Part shown: in pieces, positions 2,454-22,550 of the stretch
Layout: each line of letters opens with the position of its first letter
How positions within the stretch are numbered: the first letter of the stretch is position 1
From: a virus
IMG/VR virus record: IMGVR_UViG_3300009168_000109
Span: 1-24,223 of that record
Direction: 5' to 3' (one strand)
DNA length: 24,223 nucleotides
The notes under the pieces: generated by a model
Seen by the model: the letters and a program-made list of their open reading frames with translations, nothing else
What the model was told of the DNA's origin: nothing
Databases searched by the model: none
Made by a program: the position numbers and the translations under genes

Positions 2454-4385
2454 ATGTCCGACCGCACGCGCTACGACATCCGCGAGCTCACGATCAAGTC
2501 GTTCGAGGAAGAGCCCCAGGCGCCCATGCGCCTGCGCGGCGTCGCCTCGACGCCCACCGAGGATCGCCACGGCGACATCATCGAGCCCGGCGGCGCGACC
2601 TTCCCGGTCGAGATGCCGCTGCTCCTGCATCACCAGCACCACGATCCGGTCGGCACGGCGCGGCTGCGCCACGTCGGCGGCGTGCTCGAGTTCGACGCGG
2701 AGCTGCCCTATGTGACCACGCCCGGGACGGTGAAAACGAAGGTCGACCAGGCGCGCGACTCCATTCGGCACAAGCTGATTCGCGGCGTGTCGATTGGCTT
2801 TCGCCCGCGGGGCGCGCCCGACGACGTCATCGAACGGCGCAAGGGCGGCGGGCTGCGCTTTCTCAAAACCGAGATCCTCGAGCTCTCCCTTGTCACGGTG
2901 CCGGCGAATTCGGACGCGAGCTTTGCGGTCCTGAAGCAGCTGGACACCGGCTACCAGGCCGCGGCGGGCCGCTCACCTTTGCCCGGCGATACGGGCCCTT
3001 TGCGATCCGTAGGTACCATGACCACCGAGACCCTCAACGAATCGATCCGCGCGTACGAGACGAGCCTGGCGGCCAAGCAGGCGCAAATTGACGGCCTCCT
3101 CAATACCGCGAAGGACGCCGGCCGCACGCTCGACGCGACCGAGCGCGAGCGCTGCGACACCTTGCAGAGTGAATCCGACGGCATCATCGACACGATCAGC
3201 CGCTTCCGCGCCCGCGAGAAAAGCGCGCTGCTCCTGGCCACCCCGGTCCCGGCCACGGCGAACGGCCGCCCCGCGGCGGTCGCGGCGATCAGTGTCAGGC
3301 CCAACCAAGCGCCGGGCGCCACGTTCACGCGCGCGATGATGGCGCAGATCGCCTGCTACGGGAAGAACATCGACGTCGCGCAGTATGCCGCGCAGCGCTG
3401 GCCGGACGCCCCCGACGTGGCGCTCTACGTCAAGGCGGCGGTGGCCCCGGGCACCAGCACCGCGGCGGGCTGGGCGGCGGAACTCGTTGGCGCCACGACG
3501 GAATTTATCGCGCTGATGTGGCCGAAGACCGCCATCGGACAGATCCAGGGGATGCTCAAGGTGCCGTGGGGCATCAAGGTTCCGGCGCAAACCGGCGGCG
3601 GCACCTACAACTGGGTGGGGGAAGGCAAGCCGAAGCCCGTCACCGCGCTCGCCTTCACGTCGCAAATCCTGCCGATCGCGAAGGTCGCCGGGATCATCGT
3701 GATGAGCAAGGAGCTCGTGATGTCGTCGTCGCCCTCCGCCGAGGAGCTGGCCCGCGACAGCATGATCAAAGGGATCACCAAGTTCGTCGATCAGCAGTTC
3801 ATCGATCCGACGGTGGCCGCGGTGGCGAATGTCAATCCCGCGAGCATCACCAACGGCGTCACGCCGATCGCGAGCGTGGGGCCGCTCAGTGACATCGTCG
3901 CGATCGCGAACGCGTTCACGGCCGCGGGGGTACCGCTCGAGGGGCTCACCTACATCATGTCGCCCAACAATGCGCTGGTGCTCTCCTTCCAGCGCGAGAG
4001 CACCGGCGCGCTGCGCTTCCCGGGGATGAGTGCGGATGGCGGCAGCGTGAGCGGCCTCAAGATCGTGACCAGTGCCGCCGCGGGGAACAACGTGATCGGC
4101 CTGATCCCGCAGCTGATTCTCTACAACGATGAGGGCGGGATCACCGTCGACGTCAGCCAGGAAGCCTCGCTCCAGATGGACAGTGCCCCGGCGAGTCCCG
4201 CCGATGCGACGACCGTGTTCGTGTCGCTGTGGCAGAACAACTTCATCGGGCTGCGCGCCGAGTGGTTCATTTCGTGGCTGAAGGCGAACGCGAACGCCGT
4301 CAAGTACGTGAACAACGCCGGCTACACGATCCCGGCGCCGACCGGCCTCGAGGCGACGACGGCCGGCAACGGCAAGACGAAGTAA
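2454..4385 (+). CDS. Fused prohead protease and major capsid protein (HK97 fold)
   Basis: This single 643-residue frame joins two proteins that are separate genes in HK97. Residues 1 to about 165 are an HK97 gp4-like prohead protease: MRLRGVASTPTEDRHGDIIEP, the His cluster LLLHHQHHDPVG (H62 is the best catalytic candidate) and ELSLVTVPANSDA with the probable nucleophile near S145. A linker follows, then a helical, likely coiled-coil segment at about 189-260 resembling the delta/scaffold domain. The HK97-fold capsid starts near residue 275 (WAAELVGATTEFIALMWPKT, later EASLQMDSAPASPADATTVFVSLWQNN). An in-frame ATG at 3018 (M189) could yield the capsid part alone, but has no clear ribosome binding site. 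The protease would release itself and trim the delta segment during maturation. Confidence 0.93.
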   Translation: MSDRTRYDIRELTIKSFEEEPQAPMRLRGVASTPTEDRHGDIIEPGGATFPVEMPLLLHHQHHDPVGTARLRHVGGVLEFDAELPYVTTPGTVKTKVDQARDSIRHKLIRGVSIGFRPRGAPDDVIERRKGGGLRFLKTEILELSLVTVPANSDASFAVLKQLDTGYQAAAGRSPLPGDTGPLRSVGTMTTETLNESIRAYETSLAAKQAQIDGLLNTAKDAGRTLDATERERCDTLQSESDGIIDTISRFRAREKSALLLATPVPATANGRPAAVAAISVRPNQAPGATFTRAMMAQIACYGKNIDVAQYAAQRWPDAPDVALYVKAAVAPGTSTAAGWAAELVGATTEFIALMWPKTAIGQIQGMLKVPWGIKVPAQTGGGTYNWVGEGKPKPVTALAFTSQILPIAKVAGIIVMSKELVMSSSPSAEELARDSMIKGITKFVDQQFIDPTVAAVANVNPASITNGVTPIASVGPLSDIVAIANAFTAAGVPLEGLTYIMSPNNALVLSFQRESTGALRFPGMSADGGSVSGLKIVTSAAAGNNVIGLIPQLILYNDEGGITVDVSQEASLQMDSAPASPADATTVFVSLWQNNFIGLRAEWFISWLKANANAVKYVNNAGYTIPAPTGLEATTAGNGKTK

Positions 4386-19028: not shown

Positions 19029-19478
19029 TTAGCGCCGGGCGTGGGGATTGAGGAAGATCCGCGCGATGAGGTGCAGCACGGCGCCGATCACGGCCTGCTG
19101 CGCCGGCGGCAGCGTGTCGCGTAGCGCCTCGAGCTCCTGCACGGTCAACGGGAGCGGGGGCGCGGGCCCGATCTGCTTGCGCAGCTCAGTCTCGGCGGTG
19201 AGTTTCAACGCGTCGCAGTATTTCGCCAACATCCGCCAGGTGTAGGTGAGCTGGCCCTGTTCGATCTTCCGCAGCGTCGGCACTGAGGGCCCGCCGAGAT
19301 CGTTCACCTTCCGGAGTGTGAGGCCCTGGCGCTTGCGCTCGAATTGCAACTGCCCGCCCAAGGCGATCGTGATGTCTTTCAGTTTGCGCGCGCCCAAAAC
19401 CTTTTGGTATTTCCCCGCCACAGCTAGCCTATGACGCGGCCCAACTTGGAATGTCAAATTAATTTGCACGCTTGACAT
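19029..19478 (-). CDS. XRE-family repressor-like protein
   Basis: Read from the ATG at 19478 this is a 149-residue protein. A helix-turn-helix lies at about residues 38-85 (LGGQLQFERKRQGLTLRKVN, then PSVPTLRKIEQGQLTYTWRM, LAKYCDALKL). The C-terminal part is helical and hydrophobic (LPLTVQELEALRDTLPPAQQ, AVIGAVLHLIARIFLNPHAR) and lacks the serine-lysine peptidase of CI-type repressors. It is transcribed divergently from the Cro-like gene, so it is the best candidate for the lysogeny repressor. The start is uncertain: no clear ribosome binding site is visible, and a minus-strand TCTAAT at 19495-19500 would give an almost leaderless mRNA. A later GTG is possible. Confidence 0.78.
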   Translation of the reverse strand: MSSVQINLTFQVGPRHRLAVAGKYQKVLGARKLKDITIALGGQLQFERKRQGLTLRKVNDLGGPSVPTLRKIEQGQLTYTWRMLAKYCDALKLTAETELRKQIGPAPPLPLTVQELEALRDTLPPAQQAVIGAVLHLIARIFLNPHARR

Positions 19479-19502
19479 CAAATGGAAACTTGGAATTAGA
19501 TC
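19443..19502. promoter_or_regulatory. Probable operator and divergent promoter region
   Basis: This AT-rich stretch contains an exact direct repeat AACTTGGAAT (19443-19452 and 19487-19496, 44 bp apart). It also has an inverted repeat ATGTCAA/TTGACAT (19451-19457 and 19472-19478) and the palindrome AAATTAATTT (19456-19465). TTGACA at 19472-19477 is a perfect -35 box for rightward transcription, with a poor -10-like TTAGAT about 18 bp on. On the other strand TCTAAT (19495-19500) is a good -10. The layout suits repressor and Cro-like protein competing for the same sites. Confidence 0.6.
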
Positions 19503-19592
19503 CGGCCTCTCTCCGCGGCGGCGTGCGTTTGGCGTGTGTTGTTTCTTCGCCCACCATGACAGCTGCGGTCGTTGGATGTCTGGGAGGGACGT

Positions 19593-20951: not shown

Positions 20952-21529
20952 CGCGGCGCCGCGATCCCCTGGCCGCGCTGCAGCTGCGCCTCGTGCTCGA
21001 GCTCGAGCGGCGCCGCAGCAACGATCGCGAGCGCCAGGCGCGCCGGCGCGCGACACACCGCCAGAAAAAAATGTCACAGTCACAATCCGTCACTATGGGC
21101 TCTGGCGGTCCGTTATGGGGACAAGTGTCACGTGACATCGAAACTCCACAACAGCCCACGACCAATGAATCCGGGCCGAAATTCGCCGACGTGTCACGTG
21201 ACTGTCACAGCGCCCTCGCGCGCGGCGATCAAGATCCCGTAGTACGTTCTTCTGTACTTAGTACGTACGTACGTACAGCGGCGCTGCCGCGCCGCGATTT
21301 CCACATGGCCAAAGCCACGCTGTGGAAACGCGCGATCGCCATCGCCCACCAGGCGATCGACGAGTGGCCCACCGACAGCGCGAGCCAGGCCGAGGCCTTC
21401 AAACAACACTGCGCCGATCAGGGCCTGCCCTACGCGGAGCGATCGCCCGACAACCCGCGGCCGCTCTACGTGCGCGCGCTCGAGGCCGCGCACATGCAGC
21501 GGCGCCGACGAAAGGTCGCCAATGGCTGA
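20948..21529 (+). CDS. Early protein of unknown family containing an origin-like DNA cluster
   Basis: This 193-residue protein starts at a GTG overlapping the previous stop. The first 45 residues are a very basic helix (ERRRSNDRERQARRRATHRQ, KK). Residues 46-115 are polar and low-complexity with the repeated VSRD, and this is where the DNA has the palindromes and GTAC repeats listed next. The C-terminal part (AKATLWKRAIAIAHQAIDEW, FKQHCADQGLPYAERSPDNP, RPLYVRALEAA) is compact and helical. A helix pattern plus an internal origin recalls lambda O-type initiators, but no family match is visible. An alternative is two genes, the second from ATG 21305, but that ATG has no ribosome binding site. 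Confidence 0.62.
   Translation: MTRRRDPLAALQLRLVLELERRRSNDRERQARRRATHRQKKMSQSQSVTMGSGGPLWGQVSRDIETPQQPTTNESGPKFADVSRDCHSALARGDQDPVVRSSVLSTYVRTAALPRRDFHMAKATLWKRAIAIAHQAIDEWPTDSASQAEAFKQHCADQGLPYAERSPDNPRPLYVRALEAAHMQRRRRKVANG
21071..21278. repeat. Cluster of TGTCAC sites, palindromes and GTAC repeats (origin-like)
   Basis: GTGTCACGTGAC occurs twice exactly (21125-21136 and 21191-21202, 66 bp apart), each containing the perfect palindrome GTCACGTGAC. Further TGTCAC or GTCAC half-sites lie at 21072, 21079, 21089 and 21203. About 60 bp on, GTAC occurs six times between 21242 and 21276, including four in tandem (21261-21276), framed by CTGTAC and GTACAG. The region is clearly less GC-rich than its surroundings. 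Such iteron-like clustering inside an early gene fits a replication origin or operator. Confidence 0.6.
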
Positions 21530-21761: not shown

Positions 21762-21970
21762 GGCGCCGCGTCGATCCGCGCACCGCGCATTGTGCGCCGC
21801 CCAGCGAGCCGACATGTTCGCTCGCCGGCGCTGCCCCGCGGGGCGTGCTGGTGCCGATGGTGCCGCCCTGGGAGCTCGAGGAGACCGGCGATCTGCAGAA
21901 CACGATGCACAACGCGGACGAGCGGATCCGGCAGATGACGCGCCGGGGCGCGGCGACGGGGGCGCGATGA
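21758..21970 (+). CDS. Small unknown early protein
   Basis: This 70-residue protein is in the same translationally coupled series, with ATGA overlaps at both ends. It reads MRRRVDPRTAHCAPPSEPTC, then VLVPMVPPWELEETGDLQNT and HNADERIRQMTRRGA. The PPWELEETGDLQNTMHNAD segment is compositionally ordinary and looks real; the N-terminal part is arginine-rich. No family is recognised. Confidence 0.5.
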   Translation: MRRRVDPRTAHCAPPSEPTCSLAGAAPRGVLVPMVPPWELEETGDLQNTMHNADERIRQMTRRGAATGAR

Positions 21971-22194
21971 ACGAAGACAGGACGCAACGCCTGGCGCGAC
22001 TACTCGATGCGCAGGCCGCGGTCGATCTCGTGCTCTCGCGCGACCAGCAAGAACGTGAACGACAGGCCGACGGCAGCTTTCGCGTGCGCTGCTGCCGCTG
22101 CGGGACGTCGGTCAGCAACCCGCTTCCGGTCGCGGTGATCGTGCGCGCCTGGGTGGAGTGTCCCGAGTGCGCCGCGCGCGAGGCCGATCGATGA
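21967..22194 (+). CDS. Small protein with zinc ribbon
   Basis: This 75-residue protein overlaps the stop of the previous gene by ATGA. A helical N-terminus (MNEDRTQRLARLLDAQAAVD, RDQQERERQADG) is followed by a zinc ribbon CCRCG and WVECPECA. The layout of a helix plus a four-Cys ribbon is common in small phage regulators and RNA-binding proteins. Its stop overlaps the VRR-NUC start. Function unknown. Confidence 0.62.
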   Translation: MNEDRTQRLARLLDAQAAVDLVLSRDQQERERQADGSFRVRCCRCGTSVSNPLPVAVIVRAWVECPECAAREADR

Positions 22195-22550
22195 CGACAC
22201 GCCTCGAAAAAATCGAGCAGGCCGAGACCGTGCGGCTGCTCGAAACGATCGGCGCCGCGGTGTGGGTGCTCGGCACCAGGCGCCCGCGGGGCCACGCCTG
22301 CCCGAGTTGCGGCACGTTTGTGGCCGAGTCGCAGAGCACGCGGCAGACGCCCGGGATTAGCGACCTGGTGGCCTTCCTGCCCGGCCTGCCGTCGCCGGTG
22401 CTGTTCATCGAACAGAAGCGCGCGGGCGGCACGCTCTCGCCGGCGCAGCAAGATTTTCGCGCGATCGTCGAGTGCTCGACGGCGCGCTACGTCACCGGCA
22501 CGCTCGACGATGTGATCGCCTGGCTGAAGGCGGCGGGGTACGTGCGGTGA
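22191..22550 (+). CDS. VRR-NUC domain endonuclease with zinc-knuckle insert
   Basis: This 119-residue protein is a small PD-(D/E)xK-type nuclease of the VRR-NUC family, which cuts structured DNA. The motif TPGISDLVAFLPG carries D58, FIEQKRAGG carries E74 and K76, and LSPAQQDF carries Q86. The end (TLDDVIAWLKAAG) matches the family. An extra CPSC (C37, C40) lies between the first helix and the catalytic motifs and is not part of the usual core. It could resolve recombination or packaging intermediates, a common role for phage VRR-NUC proteins. Start and stop overlap their neighbours. Confidence 0.85.
   Translation: MTTRLEKIEQAETVRLLETIGAAVWVLGTRRPRGHACPSCGTFVAESQSTRQTPGISDLVAFLPGLPSPVLFIEQKRAGGTLSPAQQDFRAIVECSTARYVTGTLDDVIAWLKAAGYVR

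Follow-up and report, generated by a model that had tools for sequence, protein, structure and literature searches.

A repeat-rich patch within an early gene of this phage is very probably its replication origin, located inside the gene for its own putative initiator, a short protein without a winged-helix domain that we call P0001. Its probable reader is an arginine-rich helix encoded immediately before it, and in our best reading the origin belongs to the initiator-embedded kind already known, the winged-helix-less form being a variant. Throughout, 'the window' denotes the whole stretch of DNA analysed (24,223 bases), and coordinates refer to it unless a locus is named.

Repeats in a linker-coding patch

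The original prediction had singled out two exact copies of a repeat with palindromic cores, and both were found: GTGTCACGTGAC starts at 21125 and 21191 and has no third copy in the record (24,223 bases). The cores, at 21127 and 21193, are copies of the palindrome GTCACGTGAC (hereafter the box), of which an exact search of the whole window gave no others. The further half-sites, at least four, and the six GTAC in 35 bp that had also been reported are present as well, the former as GTCAC at 21073, 21079, 21089 and 21204 and the latter at 21242-21276. The GTAC block can alternatively be described as two tandem 19-bp units (21240-21257 and 21259-21276). The features are collected in Table 1.

Table 1. 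Features of the candidate origin and of the gene that contains it.
Feature	Coordinates	Strand	Basis or remark
P0001, candidate initiator gene, 193 aa	20948..21529	+	open frame; strong codon-position signal on either side of the patch
Single long helix, residues 7-44 (Leu-rich start; Arg-rich residues 21-41)	20966..21079	+	AlphaFold2 single-sequence model
Basic region RRSNDRERQARRRATHR, residues 22-38, common to other box-carrying initiators	21011..21061	+	profile match
In-frame linker patch, DNA-constrained; candidate replication origin	21045..21275	+	codon-position GC signal lost, frame open, GC lower
Three GTCAC half-sites (21073-21077, 21079-21083, 21089-21093)	21073..21093	+	exact matches
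Palindromic box 1, GTCACGTGAC	21127..21136	.	exact match
Palindromic box 2, GTCACGTGAC	21193..21202	.	exact match; 66 bp after box 1
Half-box GTCAC	21204..21208	+	exact match; 11 bp after box 2
GTAC-rich tandem repeats; candidate unwinding or second-site element	21240..21276	+	
C-terminal helical domain, residues 115-192, family not recognised	21290..21523	+	AlphaFold2

The clustering of these repeats is not due to chance. Of 400 dinucleotide shuffles of the entire window, made block by block, 392 had no exact box, 8 had one and none had two. When the patch alone was shuffled (n=5000), at least 8 half-sites were obtained in 0 of 5000 and at least 6 GTAC in 11 of 5000. A survey of 6-mer clustering over the whole 24 kb returned ACGTAC and TGTCAC/GTGACA as the two strongest clusters.

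The patch is also less GC-rich than its surroundings, as had been predicted: its GC content is 0.52-0.62 against about 0.69, and in a ranking of 2403 windows of 200 bp by GC that of the patch is 18th from the bottom. A melting-prone element was sought here; the patch is among the lowest-GC windows and holds the GTAC repeats, yet its AT-richness is not strong. GC skew over the window has no single clear switch and so is uninformative. At third codon positions GC is about 0.9 on either side of the patch and drops to 0.3-0.7 over ~21045-21275, where coding preference is found in no frame; the flanks are both strongly coding and in the same frame. This collapse between same-frame coding flanks, the strongest addition to the original observation, indicates that the patch is translated but shaped by something besides its protein. 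The proposal that it codes for a linker held up, since the frame stays open while the codon-position signal is lost, and the encoded segment is disordered between helices in the AlphaFold2 model.

The gene starts with GTG, in a GTGA overlap with the stop codon of the upstream gene. AlphaFold2 models P0001 as a high-confidence long helix (residues 7-44; pLDDT block means of 94, 96 and 88 across residues 11-40), a disordered linker and a less confident helical domain with helices at 115-139, 144-157 and 173-192 (block means 51-80). No homologue of P0001 was found in PHROGs, Pfam, IMG/VR, INPHARED, PLSDB or 18 viral records, and sequence and fold searches of the PDB gave nothing meaningful. Neither Pfam nor PHROGs matched a winged-helix domain, and the model has only the one long helix before the linker; nor did the C-terminus match an O-like, DnaD-like or primosomal family in these two collections.

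The same box in initiator genes of other phages

Because P0001 had no detectable relatives, we took the DNA motif itself as the query. The box occurs twice at a gap of 40-70 in 22 IMG/VR stretches, compared to 2 for a control palindrome of equal composition, GACTCGAGTC, in the same pair search; box pairs at a gap of 1-31 were found in 102 stretches. In about 62 of the 112 loci examined the pair lies in a mid-protein linker, usually with an Arg-rich stretch or helix just upstream, while some 45% of box-pair loci fall outside any recognised initiator. When the 62 box genes were scanned against PHROGs, 28 matched phrog_2447 (replication initiation protein), 23 a DnaD-like loader and 18 a replisome organizer; Pfam PF09681 matched 17 of them. 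Box proteins scanned individually matched replication-initiator families in 18 of 20 cases (9/10 and 9/10), one of them weakly (E 0.007). The PHROGs and Pfam labels on box genes are thus replication initiation protein, replisome organizer, O-like and DnaD-like, and the GC content of the loci ranges from 0.33 to 0.75.

Across the 62 genes the box is read in two frames, as SRD (119 times) or HVT (36 times), with both used in 32 genes. The exact box codes for 160 of the 174 SRD/HVT tripeptides in these genes, about 124 of the 160 being forced by the search; with search-forced cases left out, it still accounts for about 36 of the remaining 50. The distances between boxes concentrate at 10-12, 20-24 and 30-33 bp, with none of 13-19 bp, within a range limited by the search gaps, which suggests that boxes tend toward one side of the DNA helix. 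In the window a half-box follows box 2 at 11 bp, and the double boxes that code for SRD[S/C]HVT at other loci are phased alike. In Mammaliicoccus phage phi6223 (L186, 1001-2000), stop codons around the GTCACGTGAC box of the initiator gene apparently interrupt it, and the annotation gives two ORFs.

In the literature searched, which included few subscription papers and in one listing the 20 best of 98, we found no description of GTCACGTGAC or of GTAACGTTAC (see below) as phage origin boxes. Many papers on bHLH-zipper factors of the TFEB/TFE3 type do contain GTCACGTGAC. The resemblance to basic regions that read CACGTG is no more than convergence.

A basic helix as the probable reader of the boxes

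A simple count of basic residues upstream of the boxes was positive for 54% of loci and for 20% of random positions, a weak discriminator because of the GC-rich background; we therefore relied on family matches and a position-specific profile instead. With the window left out of its building, the basic-region profile placed RRSNDRERQARRRATHR of P0001 first among 154 window ORFs, at 18.3 bits, the next scoring 7.3. Two arginine columns five residues apart in the aligned basic regions, R20 and R25, are kept in 60/64 and 62/64 sequences, and P0001 has both. It thus carries an Arg-rich helix with R-x4-R upstream of its boxes, as do the other basic-helix initiators with GTCACGTGAC boxes. A model of the L086 initiator, made with 14 relatives, has the basic region as one long helix (144-173) after a winged-helix domain. 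Five box-carrying initiators (L120, L152, L091, L095 and L118) have no evident winged-helix domain, and their C-terminal parts match initiator families.

Pairs of closely related staphylococcal phages bear on which element recognises the boxes. The initiators of CNPx and phiIPLA7 are identical at 104/105 aligned N-terminal positions, at 18/45 in the middle and at 94/101 in the last part. CNPx combines the basic region REQNRLRKQKQR with GTCACGTGAC boxes, and phiIPLA7 the basic region REKNRLRQQRYR with GTAACGTTAC-type sites. PV83 and phi11 differ by the same exchange of basic helix and box, with N-terminal identity of 103/105, and Streptococcus and Listeria phages have yet another basic region, carrying GTAACGTTAC. 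Judging from these alignments, box type appears to be tracked by the basic helix and not by the winged helix. A winged helix that stays constant while the boxes change is unlikely to be the specificity determinant, and as a candidate reader the N-terminal winged helix is disfavoured by both swap pairs. We infer instead that the basic helix reads the boxes, and in P0001, which has no winged-helix domain, it is the likely reader. Helix and boxes are physically adjacent, so their joint transfer could also be mere linkage. A one-residue code relating the basic helix to C-type or A-type boxes was dropped, since L142 (RLRQQRHR) has GTCACGTGAC though it resembles phi11 (KLRQQRYR).

Among Staphylococcus phages (L173, L174, L177, L184 and L185), basic helix and origin boxes have apparently been exchanged as a cassette between nearly identical N-terminal flanks; for CNPx and phiIPLA7 the C-terminal flanks are nearly identical too. 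We give even weight to a broader proposal and its contrary: that the basic helix and ACGT-core boxes form a portable origin-recognition cassette in phages of 33% to 75% GC, in which a long arginine-rich helix, not the winged helix, would read the palindrome as the basic regions of eukaryotic bZIP and bHLH proteins read CACGTG, and which would swap as a unit and work without a winged helix, as in the window.

The boxes might also be read in trans, by a host factor or by a separate phage HTH protein such as the small one encoded upstream of the P0001 gene (20000-20251), with P0001 simply carrying the origin and a linker. The presence of that protein and the missing winged-helix domain of P0001 both fit such an arrangement. 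We nevertheless regard it as unlikely: a basic-helix element lies immediately upstream of the boxes in many phages as well as in the window, and it is exchanged together with box type.

Genome context and alternative roles for the boxes

The window encodes a terminase, a portal protein, an integrase, a fused protease/capsid protein, a divergent repressor and Cro-like pair and a string of small early genes. The fusion is a single ORF (2454-4385) joining a head-maturation protease (phrog_80) to a major head protein (phrog_617). None of the window proteins scanned was recognised as a helicase, loader or primase; a weak VRR-NUC-like nuclease (22191-22550) might be an early-operon partner for replication or repair. 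The genome had been taken to be circular, a point that did not stand: the IMG/VR record is linear and without end repeats, and a circle is not proven.

Searches with neighbouring genes as bait gave no close relative of the early region. A TerL search did lead to phage relatives, among them L006, whose terminase is 82% identical, and none of these carried a copy of the P0001 gene; genome scans with TerL gave no usable prophage. L006 encodes at 199-420 a relative (73% identity) of window gene 21967-22194, directly before its small terminase gene, so in L006 the early genes run into the packaging genes.

The palindromes could instead be operators, bound by P0001 or an early regulator to control transcription of the early operon, with replication starting elsewhere. 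Repressor and Cro-like genes are indeed near in the window, and some of the IMG/VR GTCACGTGAC pairs adjoin XRE-type regulator genes: those at L058 (11151-11225) and L065 (10330-10404) lie upstream of such genes, in a probable operator setting. However, initiator linkers are the dominant context of GTCACGTGAC, operators in mid-gene are rare, and the repressor/cro intergenic region of the window (~19440-19560) has different repeats, the box being confined to the patch; an operator role here appears quite improbable. The stretch between the divergent repressor and Cro-like genes (~19400-19560) contains direct repeats of AACTTGGAAT and an inverted repeat, TGTCAA...TTGACA. Neither resembles the GTCACGTGAC boxes, and binding of the boxes by a regulator alone is for that reason not favoured.

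That the repeats are incidental, reflecting a low-complexity linker or a recent insertion, is highly improbable: the relatives of P0001 that would prove conservation were not found, but the shuffles argue against it, and so does the fact that box and upstream helix recur together independently. CACGTG-core palindromes have a superficial likeness to parS, but a centromere-like (parS-like) site bound by a ParB-like protein is exceedingly improbable, since no ParB was found among the window genes scanned and the box genes elsewhere are initiators.

A model for the candidate origin

If the patch is an origin read by the basic helix, initiator dimers would dock their Arg-rich helices into the major groove, one per palindrome half, and several dimers could align on one face of the DNA, since the spacings come close to multiples of 11 bp. 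Opening of the neighbouring repeat or lower-GC stretch would follow, and the C-terminal domain might recruit the host helicase machinery.

A few model phages are known to have their origin inside the initiator gene, and the mode of origin recognition is known for a minority of phage initiators. With a box that is shared and can be searched for by DNA alone, origins can be called even for initiators that lack any detectable homologue, P0001 being an example. CNPx and phiIPLA7 constitute a natural domain swap, which makes the recognition question directly testable.

Comparison with known systems

Two marks of an initiator-embedded origin were found: repeated palindromic sites in the linker-coding DNA of an early gene of the window, and the same sites recurring in the initiator genes of other phages. 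The window was not filed under PF09681 because the N-domain of that family was not found.

For phage 80alpha, complementation in trans did not rescue an ORF20 deletion, and a suicide plasmid given ORF20 and ORF21 replicated in S. aureus; from these two results the authors concluded that the origin lies within ORF20, like that of SPP1 within gene 38 (PMC5499656). The 80alpha record likewise annotates a putative origin within ORF20. The window resembles 80alpha ORF20 and SPP1 gene 38 (G38P) in having its candidate origin embedded in the initiator gene, and the 80alpha stretch has the same anatomy, palindromes followed by short tandem repeats, which are AT-rich in 80alpha. In contrast to the window, ORF20 has the palindromes CCAACGTTGG and CCGTTAACGG, no GTCACGTGAC and no comparable basic helix that we noted. 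With this precedent (PMC5499656), the same palindromes in the linkers of other initiators and the common upstream basic helix, the original proposal of an origin inside an initiator gene is supported.

Closer in their boxes are the Staphylococcus replisome organizers phiPV83 orf20 and CNPx gp49, with a PF09681-type N-domain, and Ruminococcus phiRgPS_6 gp42. Like the window, they have GTCACGTGAC linker boxes right after an Arg-rich helix and then short repeats; they differ from P0001 in their N-terminal winged-helix domain and in their C-terminal domain. The initiators of L120 (192 aa), L095, L091, L152 and L118 share with P0001 a short N-terminal segment and a box-carrying linker, L120 being also near it in overall length, and in L120 and L091 a basic helix precedes the boxes. 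Their C-terminal parts are O-like, DnaD-like or primosomal, whereas that of P0001 matches none of these.

In phage lambda, the iterons of ori-lambda lie in the linker-coding DNA of the O initiator's own gene, beside a less stable stretch, a layout common to the window. The suggested likeness to lambda O survives as the idea of an origin within the initiator gene, and not literally: no sequence relation was found, the iterons differ, and P0001 lacks the winged-helix, O-type N-domain and has neither a recognisable helicase loader nor a recognised P-type partner. The candidate origin of the window most likely works as those of lambda O and G38P do, as a member of neither group.
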